From positions 1-34,441 of the forward strand of contig JAILZY010000031.1 in NCBI GenBank assembly GCA_023512255.1: DNA of 34,441 bases. Reading direction: 5' to 3'. The notes under the pieces are model-generated. The model saw only the letters and a program-made list of their open reading frames with translations, had not been told where the DNA came from and searched no databases. Of the stretch, positions 13,750 to 33,209 are shown piece after piece. Every line of letters begins with the position of its first letter. Positions within the stretch are counted from its first letter, which is position 1. Source of the stretch: a bacterium. GTDB lineage: Bacteria > SZUA-182 > DTGQ01. Made by a program: the position numbers and the translations under genes.

Positions 13750-15114
13750 ATGAAAAGAACTATTAAATTATTTATCATAGTAAACCTCTTCGTTCTTTTT
13801 CTTCATAGCTCCTCTAGGGCGGATTATTGGGAAAAGGTTGTCAGCCAGGGGTTTGGTGATCCTGCTAATGATTATGCCTGGAGCATGGAAACCTTCCGGG
13901 GAAAGTTATATGTCGGAACATTGAATCCTATTCGGGGAGCGGAAATCTGGTGCAGTAGCAGCGGAGAGCCTGGTAGCTGGAAAAGAACATACAATGCCCG
14001 CTCCCCACTCTCCAATCTCGGTATCCGCAGCCTCTATGCGGATGCTAATCATGCTCTTTATGCCTGCACCTTTAATATCACCGGCGCTGAAATTCTAAGG
14101 TCTTTGGATGGGCGATCATGGACTATGGTTGAAAAAGGCCGTGGCTTGCTAAGAAAACAGAAGGACGACACTATCCGATGCATGATCCGTTTTGGAAAAT
14201 ATCTCTATGGGGGAGCTGGCGGCAAAAGCGCTCAGTTGTATCGAAGCAAGAATGGCTCAAACTGGACCCTGGTCAAAACAAACCCAAGCTTTGAATCAAC
14301 TAAGGTATTAGATCCGAATACTGGAGCCGTGATTACTAACAATATCCTGATCGGAGAAATGGAAATATTCAAGGGGCAGCTCTATGCCTTCACCTGGACC
14401 AGAGATATGGACCTTGGAAATCTGATCGGCCAGGAGATCAAGGATATATCGACTCTCATTCCCAAGTCGCCGGGCGCTTTCGAGGTATGGCGAAGCAGTG
14501 ATGGGGTAAATTGGGAAAAAGTGGTCGGCAAAGATGACCCCTATGGCAACGGAATGGGCTTCTGCCTCCATAATCCTGAAAATCTGGCCAACGACGTAGT
14601 TACCTCAGTGGCAGTGTACAAGGGGAAACTATACCTAGGAACCCAAAACGACAATGGGAATAGCAGTATCTGGAGGACAGAAAACGGAGAAGAATGGGAA
14701 AAGGTGCTGGATTTTTTCAGCCTTGGAGAGAGGTTCAACTTCTATGTCTGGCGCATGATCCCCTTTAAAGACAGGCTGTTTATCGGCACCTTAAATTTGG
14801 CTCTAAACTACAATGGCGGGTTGACAACAGCCGACAAAGCAACGGGCGCTCAGATCTGGGCCACTGAGTCTGGTGATCCTGGCACTTTTTATAACCTTGT
14901 CCATAATGGATTTGATGGCGAAACCATAGTTTATAAAGGCCTTGAAATCCCTAAAAATTATGGCGTCCGCTCCTTCGGCATTCTCCATGATACCCTGTTT
15001 GCGGGTACGGCAACCATAGCCAGTGTTCCAGTACCCAAAGAGGATGATCCTGACCAGAAGACCATTGCTGGCAAAAATATTGGCTGCGAAGTCTGGAAAC
15101 TGATTGAGGAGTAG
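13750..15114 (+). CDS. secreted beta-propeller protein, paralog 1
   Basis: A 454-residue exported protein with a Sec signal peptide (positively charged start, hydrophobic IIVNLFVLFLH, probable cleavage after SSRA before DYWE). The mature part is a chain of blade-like repeats: a turn motif such as GAEIWCSSSGEPGSW, EILRSLDGRSW, QLYRSKNGSNW, FEVWRSSDGVNWEKV, SIWRTENGEEWEKV or AQIWATESGDPGTF alternates with strands like GKLYVGTLN, KYLYGGAGG, KLYLGTQN and RLFIGTLN. The SxDGxxW turns resemble Asp-box/Kelch-like turns, giving about six or seven blades. No catalytic residues are recognisable; binding or structural roles are possible. A strong AAGGAG precedes the ATG. Paralog 2 follows after 104 bases and probably shares its transcript. 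Confidence 0.75.
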   Translation: MKRTIKLFIIVNLFVLFLHSSSRADYWEKVVSQGFGDPANDYAWSMETFRGKLYVGTLNPIRGAEIWCSSSGEPGSWKRTYNARSPLSNLGIRSLYADANHALYACTFNITGAEILRSLDGRSWTMVEKGRGLLRKQKDDTIRCMIRFGKYLYGGAGGKSAQLYRSKNGSNWTLVKTNPSFESTKVLDPNTGAVITNNILIGEMEIFKGQLYAFTWTRDMDLGNLIGQEIKDISTLIPKSPGAFEVWRSSDGVNWEKVVGKDDPYGNGMGFCLHNPENLANDVVTSVAVYKGKLYLGTQNDNGNSSIWRTENGEEWEKVLDFFSLGERFNFYVWRMIPFKDRLFIGTLNLALNYNGGLTTADKATGAQIWATESGDPGTFYNLVHNGFDGETIVYKGLEIPKNYGVRSFGILHDTLFAGTATIASVPVPKEDDPDQKTIAGKNIGCEVWKLIEE

Positions 15115-15218
15115 TGGCAAGATCATAATATTGTGAGCAAGCAGACAGCGACCGATCAAAGTTTGTTGTGCGCAGGTATTCTCACAATCTCAACAAATCC
15201 TTAAAGGGGAGGGGCAAC

Positions 15219-16595
15219 ATGAAAAGGGTTATTCTGCTACTTGTTATGGCTGTTCTTTTGATTTTCTCATTGAGCTTCGGCTGTGAGGCTGAATACTGGG
15301 AACAGGTGGCTAGTAATGGATTCGGCAATCCATCTAATGACTATGCCTGGTGTATGGCCACGTTTCAGGGGAAATTATATGTAGGGACGCTCAATACTCT
15401 CCAGGGGGGCGAGATTTGGAGAAGCGCTAGCGGAGAGCCTGGTAGCTGGGAGATGGTATATAAATCCCGCTCTTCGGTTTTCTCCAATGCCGGGGTGCGA
15501 TACTTATATGCTGACGCAAATCAGGCCCTTTATGCCTGCACCTTAAACTCCCTTGGAGCTGAAATTTTAAGAACAACGGATGGCAAAGAGTGGACCGTGG
15601 TAAAAAAAGTGATCGGCAGACGATGGAATACCACCATTCGGTGCATGGTCCGCTTTGGAGAATATCTCTACGCCGGTGCCGGAGGCTATGGAGCCGAACT
15701 GTATCGGAGCAAAGATGGCCTGAGCTGGAGATTGGTCAAGACCAAGCCAAGCTTTCAGTCAAGTAAGGTTTATGATCCGCAAGCCCGAGCAGCCGTAGTC
15801 AATAACACTATGATCGGCGAGCTGGCGGTTTTTCATGATCAACTCTATGCCTTCACCTGGACTAAGGAGGCCAGATATCGGGATCTAGCCGAACATGTAT
15901 TCGGTTACGAAGTGGACAGACCAACCTATATGTCAAACTCTCCTGGTGCCTTTGAGGTGTGGCGAAGCAGTGACGGAGTGGAGTGGGAGAAGGTAATTGG
16001 CCTGGATGACAAGTACGGCAACGGCATGGGGCTTTCTCTGCTAGATCCTGCCGGCTTAGCCAATGATGTAGTTACCTCGGCTTTGGTTTTCCATGATCAG
16101 TTATATATGGGAACCCAAAACACCAATGGAAACAGCACTATCTGGAGGACCTCAGATGGGACAAGCTGGAGCAAGGTGCTGGACTTTTCTGAGCTCGGTG
16201 AGCGGGCTAACTATTATATTTGGCGCATGATTTCCTTCCAAGATAAGCTGTTTGTCGGCACAATGAACGTAGGACCGATAACCGCCCCTGGTGTGACCGG
16301 AGCCCAAATTTGGGTTTCTCCATCTGGGGATTATGGATCTTTCACCAATCTTGTCCACAATGGATTCGACGGGGAAAGCTGGACCAATGGGGCAGGTCTT
16401 GAGATCCCCAAAAATATCGGAGTGCGCAGTTTCGGCATCTTGAATGACACCCTCTATGCAGGCACGGCAGTCATCCCAAGCGTGATAATTCCAAGAGAGT
16501 GCAGCCCATACGGCATATATAGTTTCTTTAGTCATCAGCAGAAGGTTATCGCTGGAAGAGATGTCGGATGTGAAATCTGGAGGCTGGTGCAGTAA
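15219..16595 (+). CDS. secreted beta-propeller protein, paralog 2
   Basis: A 458-residue paralog of its two neighbours with the same blade order: GGEIWRSASGEPGSW, EILRTTDGKEW, ELYRSKDGLSW, FEVWRSSDGVEWEKV, TIWRTSDGTSWSKV, AQIWVSPSGDYGSF and the closing GCEIWRLVQ. I start at ATG 15219 because AAAGGGGAGGGG lies just before it and it begins a proper signal peptide (MKRVILLLVMAVLLIFSLSF) cleaved after CEA before EYWE; the frame's ATG at 15168 would put charged residues ahead of it. The cysteine near the cleavage site does not form a canonical lipobox. Compared with paralogs 1 and 3 it has a longer insertion before the last strand (about residues 425-445). No separate upstream box is seen. Confidence 0.75.
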   Translation: MKRVILLLVMAVLLIFSLSFGCEAEYWEQVASNGFGNPSNDYAWCMATFQGKLYVGTLNTLQGGEIWRSASGEPGSWEMVYKSRSSVFSNAGVRYLYADANQALYACTLNSLGAEILRTTDGKEWTVVKKVIGRRWNTTIRCMVRFGEYLYAGAGGYGAELYRSKDGLSWRLVKTKPSFQSSKVYDPQARAAVVNNTMIGELAVFHDQLYAFTWTKEARYRDLAEHVFGYEVDRPTYMSNSPGAFEVWRSSDGVEWEKVIGLDDKYGNGMGLSLLDPAGLANDVVTSALVFHDQLYMGTQNTNGNSTIWRTSDGTSWSKVLDFSELGERANYYIWRMISFQDKLFVGTMNVGPITAPGVTGAQIWVSPSGDYGSFTNLVHNGFDGESWTNGAGLEIPKNIGVRSFGILNDTLYAGTAVIPSVIIPRECSPYGIYSFFSHQQKVIAGRDVGCEIWRLVQ

Positions 16596-16620
16596 ATTAC
16601 CCTCCTAATTACCCCCCAGT

Positions 16621-16769
16621 AGCAGGGTAATTGCATGAAAATCTACCAATACCAAAAAGTTATCAAATACTTAAAAGTTATCAAATACTTATCTAGATTA
16701 ACCATAATTAGCTACCTATGTAACATATTGATATTATTGGCCAATCAATTCTCATGCAATCGCCCTGCT
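16621..16769. repeat. inverted-repeat-bounded segment, possible small mobile element
   Basis: The left arm AGCAGGGTAATTGCATGAAA (16621-16640) is matched by the reverse complement of the right arm, AGCAGGGCGATTGCATGAGA, ending at 16769: two substitutions over the first 18 bases, three over 20. The interior is AT-rich and noncoding. A single copy only in this window, so mobility is a guess. Confidence 0.55.
16655..16690. repeat. exact 18-bp tandem duplication
   Basis: AAAAGTTATCAAATACTT occurs at 16655-16672 and 16673-16690 with no spacer or mismatch. Confidence 0.93.
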
Positions 16770-16839
16770 CCCAGTAATATTCGATAATGCAGCAATAAAT
16801 CAAAAAAATAAATTAAAAACGCTAAAGATTAACTTAACC

Positions 16840-16862
16840 AATGTACGAAAAGAGATTAAAAA
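16840..16862 (+). promoter_or_regulatory. conserved upstream box of propeller gene 3
   Basis: The same 23-base block as at 13653 (AATGTACGAAAAGAGATTA plus AAAA), 66 bases before the ATG of paralog 3. The downstream leaders differ in length and sequence, apart from a shared ATAACTCA/ACAACTCA segment. Confidence 0.5.
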
Positions 16863-16905
16863 TATCTTTATTTCTGTTAATAACTCAACTTCAAGGAGGA
16901 AAAAA

Positions 16906-18258
16906 ATGAAAAAAACCTCTCGATTACTCGCACTAGCCATTCTGGTGGTTTTATCTCTCCACCCTGGTATTTGCAGTGCAGAATACTGGGTAAAGGTTGC
17001 CAGCAAGGGTTTTGGTGATCCAAGCAACGATTATGCCTGGAGTATGGCTACCTTTCAGGGAAGACTCTATGTTGGGACCCTGAATATACTGAAGGGAGCG
17101 GAAATTTGGAGAAGCAGCAGTGGAGAGCCCGGCACCTGGGAGCGAGTGTACAATGCTCTGCCTGGCCCTATTCGCTCCAATGAAGGAATACGCTATCTTT
17201 ATGCTGATAATGACCAGTTTCTGTATGCCTGCGCATCAAATCTTAGCGGAGCTGAAATCTTGCGCACCAAGAATGGGGAAGATTGGAAAGTGGTCGGAAA
17301 AAGAGGATTGGGAAATATAAAAAATACTAGCATTCGCTGCCTGATTCGCTTTGGAAATTATCTCTATGCTGGCGCGGGAAATAATGGTGCCCAACTGTGT
17401 CGAAGCAAGAATGGCCTCGATTGGGAGGTGGTCAAGACTAAACCAGGCTTTGATTCCACCAAGGTCTTTGACCCTAATACCGGTGTTTGGACCATCAATA
17501 ACACTTTGATTGGAGAGATGGTTATCTTTAAAGACAAACTCTATGCCATTACCTGGACCAAGGACTTAAAACCCACGGTTATCATCAATACGATGAAGAA
17601 AGAGCCCAGCACGGATTTAAAACTCCCTCAGTCTCCTGGTGCCTTCGAGGTCTGGAGGAGCGGCGATGGGGTAAGCTGGGAAAAGGTAGTGGGTAAGGAT
17701 GACCCCTATGGTAACGGTATGGGGTTTTGCCTCCGTGACCCTGGGGGGCTTGAGAACGATATTGTTACTGCCTCGGTTGTTTTTCGGGATCAGCTGTATA
17801 TTGGAACCCAAAATAGCGATGGAAACACTTCCATCTGGCGAACACCAGACGGAACCCAGTGGACAAAGGTGTTAGCTTTTCATGACCTGGGGGAAAAATA
17901 TAATTATTATATCTGGCGTATGATTTCCTTCAGGGACAAGCTGTTTATAGGCACCTTGAATGAGGGAGCAGTCGAAGATCCTGGGGTAACCGGGGCTCAA
18001 ATTTGGGTATCTGATTCTGGCGATCCTGGCACATTCTATAACCTTGTCCACAATGGTTTTGATGGAGAAACCATAACTTTGGCCGATATAACCATGCCGA
18101 AAAACTATGGCATCCGCTGCTTTGGCATTCTAAATAACACCCTGTTTGCGGGCACAGCTACGGTGATAAGTGTTCCGGTGCCCAAGTATGACCGAGACGA
18201 TAAGGTAACCATCGCGGGAAAGGATGTTGGTTGTGAAATCTGGAAAATGATTCCCTAG
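16906..18258 (+). CDS. secreted beta-propeller protein, paralog 3
   Basis: A 450-residue protein, closest by eye to paralog 1. Signal peptide MKKTSRLLALAILVVLSLHP, with probable cleavage after CSA before EYWV. Blade turns run GAEIWRSSSGEPGTW, EILRTKNGEDW, QLCRSKNGLDW, FEVWRSGDGVSWEKV, SIWRTPDGTQWTKV, AQIWVSDSGDPGTF and a terminal GCEIWKMIP. Three cysteines (in LYAC, IRC and GCEIW) are kept in all three paralogs and could form disulfides in an oxidising compartment. A strong AAGGAGG precedes ATG 16906. It has its own leader and upstream box, so it may be transcribed apart from paralogs 1 and 2. Function unknown. Confidence 0.75.
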   Translation: MKKTSRLLALAILVVLSLHPGICSAEYWVKVASKGFGDPSNDYAWSMATFQGRLYVGTLNILKGAEIWRSSSGEPGTWERVYNALPGPIRSNEGIRYLYADNDQFLYACASNLSGAEILRTKNGEDWKVVGKRGLGNIKNTSIRCLIRFGNYLYAGAGNNGAQLCRSKNGLDWEVVKTKPGFDSTKVFDPNTGVWTINNTLIGEMVIFKDKLYAITWTKDLKPTVIINTMKKEPSTDLKLPQSPGAFEVWRSGDGVSWEKVVGKDDPYGNGMGFCLRDPGGLENDIVTASVVFRDQLYIGTQNSDGNTSIWRTPDGTQWTKVLAFHDLGEKYNYYIWRMISFRDKLFIGTLNEGAVEDPGVTGAQIWVSDSGDPGTFYNLVHNGFDGETITLADITMPKNYGIRCFGILNNTLFAGTATVISVPVPKYDRDDKVTIAGKDVGCEIWKMIP

Positions 18259-18365: not shown

Positions 18366-18399
18366 TGAGGGAACTCATCAAGTGAGGGAACTCATCAAG
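18366..18399. repeat. exact 17-bp tandem duplication
   Basis: TGAGGGAACTCATCAAG is present at 18366-18382 and 18383-18399 with no spacer, between the convergent propeller 3 and YGQ/chagasin genes. Confidence 0.93.
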
Positions 18400-18428
18400 G
18401 GGTTTTCCCTTCAAAATTCTTTTTGTTT

Positions 18429-18467
18429 GTCGACTTCCCACAAGGGAGGCCTTGTTGGGAAGTCGAC
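18429..18467. terminator. strong hairpin between convergent genes
   Basis: GTCGACTTCCCA then CAAGG pairs with CCTTG then TTGGGAAGTCGAC around a GAGG loop, giving a stem of about 17 pairs with one bulge. It sits between the ends of the plus-strand propeller 3 and the minus-strand gene ending at 18499. There is no T-run directly after the stem on either strand, so it is a possible bidirectional terminator or transcript-end stabiliser, not a textbook one. Confidence 0.45.
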
Positions 18468-18498
18468 AGCGCCCACCGAACAGGTAATTTTCTTGCCT

Positions 18499-19497
18499 CT
18501 AATCCTCAACCTCTACCGTAATTTCAAAGATCTTATTAACGGTTCCAGAGGAGTTTACGTATTTCAATCTGATAGTAGTCGTGCCGGGGCCTTTGGCCTT
18601 GAATATCCACTGCTGTACCGTTCCTATCCCATTGGCAGAGGAGATAAGGTAGTATTGACTACTTACCTTTTCAACTACATCGGTATCTAATTCAACTGTA
18701 TCCAGCATCCATTGGTAGCCAGTGGATTGGTTAGCAGCCAAGACCACACTCAGAGTCTTATCCTCGCTCAGAGTAACCTGATCGCCATTATCATTTTCAG
18801 TAAGGGACTTGTCCGCGGTTTTTAATTGCTGAGTACCTGCAGACTGGCTATAAGGATTCTGAGCGTAGTAGGGAGATTGACCGTAGGAATATGATGCATA
18901 GGCATATTGGCCATAAGGGTTTTGAGCATAGGGGGTTTGCCCGTAAGCATATTGGCCATAAGGATTTTGCCCATAGGCATACTGCCCATACGGCTGGCCA
19001 TAGGGGGGGTGAGCATATCCATACTGGCCATAGGGGGTTTGCCCATAGGCATACTGGCCGTAAGGGTTTTGCCCATAAGCATACTGGCCATACGGCTGGC
19101 CATAGGGGTTTTGACCATAAGCATACTGGCCGTACGGCTGACCATAGGGGTTTTGAGCATAGGGGGGTTGCCCGTAAGCATATTGGCCATACGGATTTTG
19201 CCCATAAGCATACTGACGACCGTAGGGGTTTTGGCCATAAGAGTACGGACTCTGATAGGCAGATCCGCCAAATCCGAAATACTGAGCTGAGATCGGATTT
19301 ATTCCTAAACCATAGGGAGAGAAAGCCCCAGCATAAGGAGAAGAAAAAGCAGCTCCTGCAGGCAGGCTGCCTCCGGCAGCAAGCAATGGTGAGCCAAAGG
19401 GTGGGAGCTGAGCATAAGATGTCATAGGGAAAATGACTGGTAGGGTAAAAATCATGATCAACAAACCGAACCTACAACTGCCTTTCGATAACAACAT
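18499..19497 (-). CDS. secreted YGQ-rich low-complexity protein with C-terminal chagasin-like (I42) inhibitor domain
   Basis: A 332-residue exported protein. A signal peptide ([19 protein letters not shown], cleaved near SYA) leads into a Pro/Ala/Ser segment, then about 125 residues (roughly 80-215) built from tandem units such as [13 protein letters not shown], almost only Y, G, Q, A, P and N. A roughly 95-residue C-terminal domain (about 230-332) has the features of the chagasin / I42 cysteine-protease inhibitor family: an [10 protein letters not shown] loop (family NPTTGYxW), then [19 protein letters not shown] and [10 protein letters not shown]. Chagasin domains plug papain-like protease active sites with three loops; the third, usually RPW-like, is not obvious here. 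GGAGG is 7 bases from the ATG. Convergent with the propeller genes. Confidence 0.8.
18840..19260 (-). repeat. coding tandem repeat (YGQ units)
   Basis: Imperfect 15- to 45-base units (plus-strand sense like CATACTGGCCATA and GGGTTTTGCCCATA) encode the YGQ-rich region. Unit order varies, with TPYGQ, PPYGQ and NPYGQ versions and local duplications of longer blocks, as expected for repeat expansion by slippage. Because the repeat is GC-periodic, long shadow frames exist in all other frames. Confidence 0.85.
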
Positions 19498-19537
19498 GAT
19501 AAAACCTCCGCTGTTTTAAATCACGAGGCGTAAACTG

Positions 19538-29879: not shown

Positions 29880-32800
29880 TTATTTTAGATATTTGAGATA
29901 ATGTCGAAAGATGAGCAGAGCATCCATCGGGGTTATCTCACCGTCGCGATTGAGATCGAAATAATCAGCACACGGCCCAGATGACAGGTAACAGTGTAAA
30001 ACCATGGTTACATCCGCTGGAGTTACCTCTCCATCGCCATCGGCATCCTCGGGACAAAGATATACAAAACAGCCTCCGGATGAAGAAAAACTAGCCAGAT
30101 GATCCTTCAACTCTTTAAGCTGTATGGGGTAGCGCTCACCCTTAAGACCGCCCCTAACCATAAATTTCAACCAGAGGAGATAGCCGCTCGCCCCTTGCGG
30201 AATGGCACCCAAGGCGGTCAATCCTCCTGCTTTAAGAGTGCCTGGTGGCTCAATCTGATTGACCTCTAAGAAGGGAAAGGATGCGGCCATATCACCGGCC
30301 TCAAAACCTGTGTACTCCAAAATAGTGGCATCATAGCTAACCTTGAATCCGAGTGAAGAGACCTGATTGGGCGAATTTTGAATCTTGACCCCAATCCGGA
30401 TCTCTTGCCCCATCCTACCAGATGCTCCTTCGATATCCAAATTTCCAAAGCTGCTCTCATCACATTCTGCTACTGCTGTCTGGCCCGCGCTGACCTCACC
30501 GCCGCCCTCGCTGCTAGCAGCTTCGACACCGCTTTCCGATCCATGCGCTTCGCTTTCAAGCCCTGGGCCGAAAGTCTCAAGCTTCGGCTCTGCCCCTTGC
30601 GCTTCGGTTTCTAATTCAGAGCCAGATATTCCGCTTTCTGGCTCTGAGCCGGACGCTTCGATCTCCAATTCCGGGCTAGCTGGTGTTTCGCTTTCAAGCC
30701 CTGGGCCGGAGGTCTCAAGCTTCGGCTTTTCAAGCTTCGGCTCTGCCCCTTGCGCTTCGGTTTCTAATTCAGAGCCAGATATTCCGCTTTCTGACTCTGA
30801 GCCGGACGCTTCGATCTCCAATTCCGGGCTAGCTGGTGTTTCGCTTTCTGGCCCTGGGCCGGAGGTCTCAAGCTTCGGCTTTTCAAGCTTCGGCTCTGCC
30901 CCTTGCGCTTCGGTTTCTGGAGCAGCAACTTCTGGGCATCCCTCATCTATTTCTCCATTACAGTCATTGTCCCGGCCATCGCAGCTTTCTGTTGCCTTGG
31001 GATTGACATTCGGGTCGCGGTCATCGCAATCCTGATGGTTCAAGACATACCCTGGCGGCATCTGGCAAGTTATAAACTCAGTATCCGCATTACCACAGCC
31101 ATCAGCATCAGCATCTTGAAAAAAGGAGTGGAGAGGATAGACAGTAAAGGTAGTGGCCGAGCTGGCCGCGCCAATGGCTGAGGAGGCGGCTACAGTTACG
31201 ATGTAGGTACCTGCCGAAGCGTAAATATCAAGATAGCAGGTCGCCTGATAGAATAGCTGGCCGCTGCTGTTATCAGTGGCTGGAGAAATATCAAGGGGAA
31301 TGATTTTCCCTACCGGATTAATAATTCGGACCTGCAAGCCGGTGAGCTCACTGCCAGCTAGAACCTTGACTACAACCTGATCGGTGGGGCAGTAAGTTGT
31401 CTGATCCAGGCTGATCTGAAGCTCCATCCCAGGGGCATAGTCTGCTGCCACGGACAATGCCCATATAGCCTGGGCAGTGCTAATCGTGTTGCTAGAATAA
31501 ACTCCGGCTATGTTATCCCATCCTCCATCTTGGTTTTGGGTAGCCATCAGCCAGGCAGCACCCCGGGCCAAAGAGTCATTCCCCCTGCCACATTCGGCCA
31601 GGGCGATCATGGCCATAGCCGTGCTAGAAACATTGCTGATCTCACCCTTTTGAATACCCCAGCCGCCATCATCATTCTGGCTGTCAATCAGCCATTGGGC
31701 GGCTCTGTCCACAAGCTGATAGTCATACTGGGCTTTTTTGAGAATAATTGTGGACATGGCTGTCTGGCCCACGGTTTCCCAGTGGCCATCTAGGCTATTG
31801 GCTATAAGATACTGAATTCCACGGCTGAGTGAGGTATTTGACCTATCATACCCTGCACCCAGCAAGGCGATCAAAGCAAAATCGGTAGAAAAAACACTGC
31901 TCTCTCCCTTGGCCTCTCTCCACAGACTGCCCCAGCCGCCGTCGCTATTCTGCCCGAGAGTGAGCGCCGCGGCTGCCTGTGAGATAGCTGACTGAGCGAC
32001 CTTTTTGCCACTCTGAGCTAAAGACCAAACGCATAGTCCGCTAGTATCCGTTTCAACCCCAACAATTGATGGATAATAGATGCTCCACCAGGCCCATCCG
32101 CCACTTTGAGAGTGCAGGAGAAGATCGATCGCCTGATCAATGCTCGATGAGGGTATAGCCGAGGGAAAAGCGTTCACAGCCGCAGATAATCCTAAAATAG
32201 CCCAGGCTGTCGATGCCGGGATGAGATAATCACCCAGATAGTCTCCTGTCTCAGAAATATGGCTATCCATCCAAGCCAAAGCGCTCTTGAGCTGCTGGCC
32301 ACGATAGCCGCTTTGAGCCAAAGCCAGGACAGCTTTGGCGGTTTCAGCATTATGGCTAGGCCAGCCTGGGAATCTTCCCCATCCAAAATCTTTATTCTGC
32401 CCGGCCAAAACCTTGCTCTGGCCGGTCTGAATATCAGAGGCCTCGCCGGCATAGGCAAAAACTTCAAGCCCATCGATAGCCTCACTTATGCTATATTCTG
32501 AATAGTGGCTACGCAGATACTCAATCGCCCTCTGAACCTGCGGACTGGATGCCGACTCAGCTAAAATCAGGGCCAAAGCCGCCTCTTGCACCCCAGCTAC
32601 ACTCGACTCACCGGCAAAAGCCCCCCAAAACCCATCAGGATTCTGGTTAGCCTTGAGCCAAGCTATACCATCAGCCACCACCTGAGAGCTACCGCCCGTT
32701 CTGCCCGCTTTCAGGAAAGCGATAACCGTCAGAGCAACGATCTTTGTATTGCCTACGCTTGGATCGGCAAAATTGCTCTGCACCTTTGACTCTAACCACG

Positions 32801-33209
32801 ACATAGCATTTTGTATGGTCAGGGAGTTTTTCTCTTCTCCAGCCTCAGCCAAAGCCCAGATTGCGTAAGCAGTGCTGATGATATTTTCATCCCAGCTTCC
32901 ATCAGGGGCTTGGAGCCTTTTAAGTCTGCTAACAAGGCGAGGCAGCGGCGACAGATAGCCTCCGTAGGCAGCAGCCACATAGGCCCTTATGGCCAGTGAA
33001 TTGCCTATGACTACAGAGTAAGGCTCCCAGCCTCCTTCTTTTGTCTGGCGGTCAAGCAGCCAGGAGGCTCCTTTTTGTATAGACTGATTACGGGCGAGGT
33101 TTTGAATTTCAATTTCAGCCCAGGAAATACAAGGTCTTAATAATACTCCTTCTCCAGCTATCAAACTAAGGATTAACAAAAGAGTTGATAATATAAGATT
33201 TTTTTTCAC
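29880..33209 (-). CDS. secreted multidomain protein: terpene-cyclase-like toroid, Ig-like, MopE motif, cohesin-like and dockerin
   Basis: An 1109-residue exported protein. Signal peptide (KKNLILSTLLLILSLIAGEG). Residues about 35-595 are prenyltransferase/squalene-oxidase repeats with some nine QW-like turns (EGGWEP, DGSWDE, DGFWGA, SGGWAWW, SDGGWGS, DDGGWGI, QDGGWDN and others), predicting an alpha/alpha toroid; I see no DxDD-type catalytic motif, so probably not a cyclase. About 600-690 is an Ig-like segment. At 695-760 is a MopE-type metal-binding motif (DCDDRDPNVNPKATESCDG then DNDCNGEIDEGC). Then an acidic Ser/Glu/Pro linker with 51-residue repeats (about 765-905), a cohesin-like domain (about 915-1045; KVSYDATILEYTGFEAGDM) and a dockerin with two calcium loops (DADGDGEVTPADV and DLNRDGEITPMDA). 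Start is GTG 33209 with AAGGAGG 6 bases upstream. Confidence 0.85.
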   Translation of the reverse strand: MKKNLILSTLLLILSLIAGEGVLLRPCISWAEIEIQNLARNQSIQKGASWLLDRQTKEGGWEPYSVVIGNSLAIRAYVAAAYGGYLSPLPRLVSRLKRLQAPDGSWDENIISTAYAIWALAEAGEEKNSLTIQNAMSWLESKVQSNFADPSVGNTKIVALTVIAFLKAGRTGGSSQVVADGIAWLKANQNPDGFWGAFAGESSVAGVQEAALALILAESASSPQVQRAIEYLRSHYSEYSISEAIDGLEVFAYAGEASDIQTGQSKVLAGQNKDFGWGRFPGWPSHNAETAKAVLALAQSGYRGQQLKSALAWMDSHISETGDYLGDYLIPASTAWAILGLSAAVNAFPSAIPSSSIDQAIDLLLHSQSGGWAWWSIYYPSIVGVETDTSGLCVWSLAQSGKKVAQSAISQAAAALTLGQNSDGGWGSLWREAKGESSVFSTDFALIALLGAGYDRSNTSLSRGIQYLIANSLDGHWETVGQTAMSTIILKKAQYDYQLVDRAAQWLIDSQNDDGGWGIQKGEISNVSSTAMAMIALAECGRGNDSLARGAAWLMATQNQDGGWDNIAGVYSSNTISTAQAIWALSVAADYAPGMELQISLDQTTYCPTDQVVVKVLAGSELTGLQVRIINPVGKIIPLDISPATDNSSGQLFYQATCYLDIYASAGTYIVTVAASSAIGAASSATTFTVYPLHSFFQDADADGCGNADTEFITCQMPPGYVLNHQDCDDRDPNVNPKATESCDGRDNDCNGEIDEGCPEVAAPETEAQGAEPKLEKPKLETSGPGPESETPASPELEIEASGSESESGISGSELETEAQGAEPKLEKPKLETSGPGLESETPASPELEIEASGSEPESGISGSELETEAQGAEPKLETFGPGLESEAHGSESGVEAASSEGGGEVSAGQTAVAECDESSFGNLDIEGASGRMGQEIRIGVKIQNSPNQVSSLGFKVSYDATILEYTGFEAGDMAASFPFLEVNQIEPPGTLKAGGLTALGAIPQGASGYLLWLKFMVRGGLKGERYPIQLKELKDHLASFSSSGGCFVYLCPEDADGDGEVTPADVTMVLHCYLSSGPCADYFDLNRDGEITPMDALLIFRHYLKYLK
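30550..30920 (-). repeat. 153-bp in-frame tandem repeat in linker
   Basis: Two nearly identical 153-bp units (offset for instance CTAATTCAGA at 30611 and 30764) and a partial third encode a 51-residue Glu/Ser/Pro-rich unit (AEPKLEKPKLETSGPG, SPELEIEASGSE). The length is a multiple of three, so the frame is kept. Near-identity suggests recent expansion. Confidence 0.9.

Follow-up and report, generated by a model that had tools for sequence, protein, structure and literature searches.

Inhibitors of the chagasin family (MEROPS I42, PF09394), among them chagasin and EhICP2/amoebiasin, are domains directed against cysteine peptidases. Chagasin contacts its target peptidases through three loops, L2 (NPTTG), L4 (GxGG) and L6 (RPW/F) (PMC2607524). 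Single loop substitutions weaken chagasin without abolishing it, and the W93A variant retains affinities of 31 pM for cruzipain and 825 pM for cathepsin L (PMC2607524), so that loss of L6 alone does not end inhibition. The cyspins of Clostridium cellulovorans are cellulosomal protease inhibitors with measured activity (as cited in PMC3444338) and, being held in an extracellular assembly, are the nearest known parallel to a tethered inhibitor. A different group of secreted proteins, the Tyr-rich extracellular proteins of eukaryotes, comprises wall or matrix proteins such as those of mussel foot, resilin, the Eimeria oocyst wall and the diatom protein AC3362, which takes part in the biosynthesis or stability of the cell wall (PMC4220933).

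We report a bacterial gene whose product joins an I42 domain homologous to chagasin with a long Tyr-rich tail. Compared with the chagasin family, this copy keeps the TGY of L2, has an altered L4, lacks the RPW of L6 and adds a tail of 138 amino acids. Unlike the cyspins it has no dockerin match, and any tethering would be via the Tyr-rich tail. It resembles the eukaryotic wall and matrix proteins in Tyr richness and predicted secretion, but is bacterial and carries a folded I42 domain. In the open-access literature on I42 and on bacterial Tyr-rich matrix proteins we found no such protein. The domain is known, the architecture is new and lineage-specific, and a change of function is probable. 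The gene lies in the window, by which we mean the whole stretch of 34,441 nucleotides analysed, and its features and those of its surroundings are as follows.

18499..19497, minus strand: ORF of 332 aa with ATG start, comprising signal peptide (predicted), linker, Tyr-rich region and I42 domain; an orthologue is present in the sister species
19505..19509, minus strand: ribosome-binding site GGAGG, 7 nt upstream of the ATG, as read from the sequence
19411..19497, minus strand: signal-peptide-like N-terminus with a hydrophobic core, residues 1-29, judged by hydropathy only
19258..19410, minus strand: Gly/Ala/Pro/Ser-rich linker, residues 30-80
18844..19257, minus strand: Tyr-rich low-complexity region, residues 81-218, 29% Tyr, 24 Y-x-Q units
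18514..18771, minus strand: chagasin-family I42 domain, residues 243-328, by Pfam profile and predicted fold
18715..18732, minus strand: loop L2, NQSTGY (chagasin NPTTGF), retained with P replaced by Q
18619..18630, minus strand: loop L4, GIGT (chagasin GxGG), partly altered
18544..18561, minus strand: region of loop L6, YVNSSG (chagasin RPW), lost
16906..18258, plus strand: secreted beta-propeller protein, encoded convergently with the tail-I42 gene, an arrangement also present in the sister species
18428..18468, no strand assigned: nearly perfect inverted repeat between the convergent genes (z = -3.6)

The extent and strand of the ORF agree with those of the first-pass annotation, and its proposal that the protein is secreted is supported by the signal-peptide-like start. 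Cleavage would likely occur after SYA, before Q30, and a comparable A-Q boundary is present in most family members. Two plus-strand ORFs across the repeat (18891-19427 and 18907-19290) were rejected as antisense coding because it is the minus frame that holds the ribosome-binding site, the I42 domain and the orthologue. Plasmid, phage or viral origin was also rejected: tblastn searches gave no match in plasmids or phages and none that was confirmed in viral contigs. NCBIfam contains no model for the 332-aa protein.

The C-terminal domain matches Pfam Inhibitor_I42 (PF09394) at 54.8 bits (cut-off 27.2) over profile positions 2-91 of 91, and a profile of the family detects chagasin among PDB sequences at 1.3e-13. 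An AF2 model of the domain (pLDDT 87.8, pTM 0.80), used as a Foldseek query, returned EhICP2 (8.6e-10) and chagasin (3e-7) as top matches, and the ten best PDB structure matches are EhICP2, amebosin or chagasin with query TM of 0.62-0.75. The model and these matches point to a chagasin-type Ig-like beta-sandwich. The I42 identity assigned on first pass is upheld by both profile and fold, and the two motifs then described, NQSTGYQW and WIFKAKGPG, are present.

The 138 residues of the tail comprise 40 Tyr, 26 Gln, 22 Gly, 19 Pro, 13 Ala and 8 Asn, with essentially no charge (Gln 19%, Gly 16%, Pro 14%). At a background Tyr frequency of 3.1%, that of the other long ORFs of the window, the probability of at least 40 Tyr in 138 residues is approximately 3e-27; the richest 138-aa stretch in those ORFs has 11 Tyr. 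The tail has a period of 5 aa (15 bp) with higher-order periods of 30, 42 and 102 bp, and the diversity of its third codon positions (1.86 bits) is an argument that the amino acids are under selection and that recent DNA copying is not the sole cause. The Tyr-rich stretch seen on first pass is real, although 138 rather than about 125 residues long. Its description there as FUS-like applies to composition only: in common with the low-complexity domains of FUS and EWS, the tail has Tyr at regular intervals amid Gly and Gln and carries very little charge, but it is proline-rich, bacterial and predicted to be secreted, has 2 FUS-type [G/S]Y[G/S]Q tetrads against 18 [P/A]YGQ, and showed no significant match when its sequence was compared with PDB chains. 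The resemblance is one of composition, not homology.

Relatives were sought by protein and by profile in 60 related or background genomes and in nine genomes of the class, including the genome of the window (G000), a sister species (G001), a member of the same family (G003) and a member of another family of the order (G004). Four genomes of the order hold 14 I42 proteins of this kind (two in G000, four in G001, six in G002 and two in G004); none turned up in the four genomes that represent other orders of the class, and G003 has short I42 proteins only, the one that was read being without a tail. Twelve of the 14 are Tyr-rich, defined by 11 or more Tyr within a 60-residue stretch, and the fusion therefore recurs in homologues. 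Unit sequences vary across the paralogues (NPYGQ, NPYQYQ, GYPTYP, YNPYGQQQ), and Tyr richness persists in all four genomes. Among the 39 I42 domains of a phylogenetic tree, the 13 of the order that lack BsuPI form one clade (98/98), a lineage-specific expansion in which one member, G002_C34b, is only mildly Tyr-rich. A separate observation concerns a secreted protein of the sister species (L056:8078-10099, contig C30) in which a full-motif, cysteine-peptidase-type I42 domain is combined with two BsuPI (intracellular proteinase inhibitor) domains; it is possibly a two-class protease inhibitor.

A scan of 386 genomes for PF09394 detected it in 29. Most other bacterial I42 proteins that were read are short or carry other sequence; none of the 23 read outside the order has a Tyr-rich region, and none exceeds 5 Tyr in 60 residues. 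Because the order's copies form one clade and these outside proteins lack the Tyr-rich region, the fusion looks like a single lineage-specific invention. A 4-row profile scan of genome contigs returned two loci only, one in a MAG record whose contig is G004:C99 itself, the other a plain, tail-less I42 ORF of 140 aa from a Nitrospinota MAG. A DNA search for the pattern PYxQxPY found little besides the window gene, its orthologue and an island in G002, because the pattern is too specific to one unit type.

The loops through which chagasin binds peptidases are eroded in this family. The first-pass annotation regarded the domain as a protease inhibitor and passed over two motifs of the window copy, the changed GxGG (GIGT) and the missing RPW (VNS); strict GxGG occurs in 14 of 27 other I42 domains, so that its loss is only weakly diagnostic. 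In the orthologue of the sister species, which has a longer tail with 53 Tyr, L2 is lost as well, VDTASAYQW standing in place of NxxTGYxW. L2 is kept in 5 of 12 Tyr-rich copies against 24 of 27 others (Fisher 0.004) and L6 in the same proportions (Fisher 0.004; the L6 call for G002_C176b is by eye a chance RxF and the true count 4 of 12), the difference in L4 is not significant (0.17), and neither is that in copies keeping all three motifs (2 of 12 against 13 of 27, 0.08), all of these p-values being too small since the family members are related and the Fisher test overstates their independence. None of the three motifs remains in 5 of 12 Tyr-rich copies, as against 1 of 27 others, and on the I42 tree the loss of L2 requires at least 3 changes. 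The I42 domain has a dN/dS of approximately 0.34 (0.10 for the neighbouring propeller), a purifying constraint which indicates more than a relic in decay. Loop erosion in a constrained domain fits a fold that has been kept for some purpose other than peptidase binding.

Similar tails are shared by other secreted proteins, and it is mainly for this reason that we view the tail as the unit of function. Several of the I42 genes of G002 and G001 sit among genes for other secreted proteins with Tyr-rich stretches, namely divergent LVIVD-like proteins with Tyr-rich ends (Pfam matches sub-threshold), standalone proteins of the YNPYGYQQ type and proteins without a known domain; a search of the genome of the window for relatives of the LVIVD-like proteins gave none. 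Secreted Tyr-rich clusters without I42, with LVIVD-like proteins, standalone YNPYGYQQ repeats and neighbours of unknown domain, were also noted at L050 (G002:C34), L049 (G002:C189) and L046 (G001:C30).

The reading that we favour, and which we consider to have somewhat better than even chances, is that of a Sec-exported surface or matrix protein in which the tail provides multivalent contact and a co-opted I42 domain serves as cap or dock. The protein would be exported by Sec to the cell surface or an extracellular matrix, and its Tyr/Gln/Gly/Pro-rich repeat tail would be a selected, expandable module. Through pi stacking, and possibly dityrosine links, the tail most likely makes multivalent Tyr-mediated contacts, which could lead to assembly and cross-linking. 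The I42 domain, derived from a cysteine-peptidase inhibitor, would now act chiefly as a folded cap, docking or anchoring the tail to a putative partner, and less as a dedicated inhibitor. Since the parts that would block proteases are worn away in most copies, the domain probably now helps to build a surface matrix or serves as a docking point within it; some copies may still inhibit. More tentatively, and with less than even chances, the order may possess a Tyr-rich biomaterial of its own, built from interchangeable folded domains (I42, propeller-like and others) on co-assembling, perhaps cross-linking tails, with I42 exapted as an assembly cap.

A rival reading, put forward in the first-pass annotation and weakened by the erosion of the loops, is that the protein is an active cysteine-peptidase inhibitor tethered in the matrix, shielding surface proteins from papain-like peptidases of the cell itself or of competitors. 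The window copy has the I42 fold and an intact L2, two Tyr-rich relatives (G004_C86 and G001_C18) keep all three motifs, and both the cyspins and the tolerance of chagasin for single loop substitutions are in keeping with such a role. Papain-family (C1) matches number two in G001, four in G002 and three in G003; the two enzymes that were read (G001, G002) have signal-peptide-like starts, and the C-terminus of the sister-species enzyme matches dockerin weakly, below threshold. However, searches for papain-family peptidases gave none in G000, a genome 96.6% complete, or in G004, and loop intactness is out of step with the presence of targets, the copies of G002 (four C1 matches) being mostly eroded and those of G004 (none) mostly intact. 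Together with the two altered loops of the window copy and the additional loss of L2 in its nearest orthologue, these results make the tethered inhibitor unlikely, and they do not support the claim that the protein is primarily a working protease inhibitor.

Two further explanations concern the tail. A prion-like or amyloid tail that polymerises into fibres and displays the I42 domain on their surface would suit 25% Gln plus Asn, 29% aromatic residues, near absence of charge and regular repeats. The 14% proline is spread through the units, however, and proline throughout repeat units disfavours cross-beta stacking; we regard this explanation as improbable. Still less probable, to the point of being very doubtful, is a neutral spacer of little function generated by slippage on an ordinary secreted I42 protein. 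The nested tandem periods are a mark of recent duplication and unit sequence varies freely between paralogues, but synonymous diversity among the units, the persistence of Tyr richness in four genomes despite unrelated units, and its presence on proteins without I42 all stand against neutrality. If the reading of a surface or matrix protein with a co-opted I42 domain is true, a protease-inhibitor fold has been recruited for a structural role in a surface matrix, and paralogues in present-day relatives still record the steps between, from copies with all loops intact to copies with none. Tyr-rich repeat materials, a class described mainly in silk, resilin, the mussel foot, the diatom wall and the oocyst wall of parasites, would then gain a genetically encoded bacterial member. 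Labels of 'chagasin family inhibitor' in this lineage may mark proteins that inhibit nothing.

Three tandem secreted propeller paralogues (13750-18258, plus strand) precede the gene, the first two sharing 61-62% identity with the third. The structure modelled for this third protein resembles a propeller (pLDDT 72), and no Pfam model exceeds its cut-off in this family. The convergent pair of tail-I42 gene and propeller gene is kept in the sister species, where the propeller is 82% identical. Within the class the propeller family is confined to G000-G003, with 6-10 matches each, a count that includes fragments and weak partial matches; tandem propeller sets were also seen in G001:C23 and G002:C42. 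The fusion occurs without propellers in G004, and the reverse, propellers and no fusion, is seen in G003. Because the two distributions do not coincide, the link is suggestive only, and an obligatory association with the propellers is not supported.

The inverted repeat between the convergent genes (18428-18468) is likely a bidirectional terminator, and an unrelated hairpin occupies the equivalent intergenic place in the sister species. A dispersed element was rejected, the hairpin being single-copy in the genome. Between the propeller gene and the hairpin lies an exact 17-base tandem copy (TGAGGGAACTCATCAAG, 18366-18399). Elsewhere in the window, the 1109-aa product of a minus-strand gene (29880-33209) matches squalene-hopene-cyclase/TED-like toroids and combines them with a MopE metal-binding motif, a cohesin and a dockerin in one chain. 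The C-terminal part of this cohesin/dockerin protein is resembled by that of a secreted papain-family peptidase of the sister species (L040:358-2541, contig C61; BLAST 2e-19). The gene at 29880-33209 also holds a 153-bp tandem repeat with 98% matches (30577-30918).
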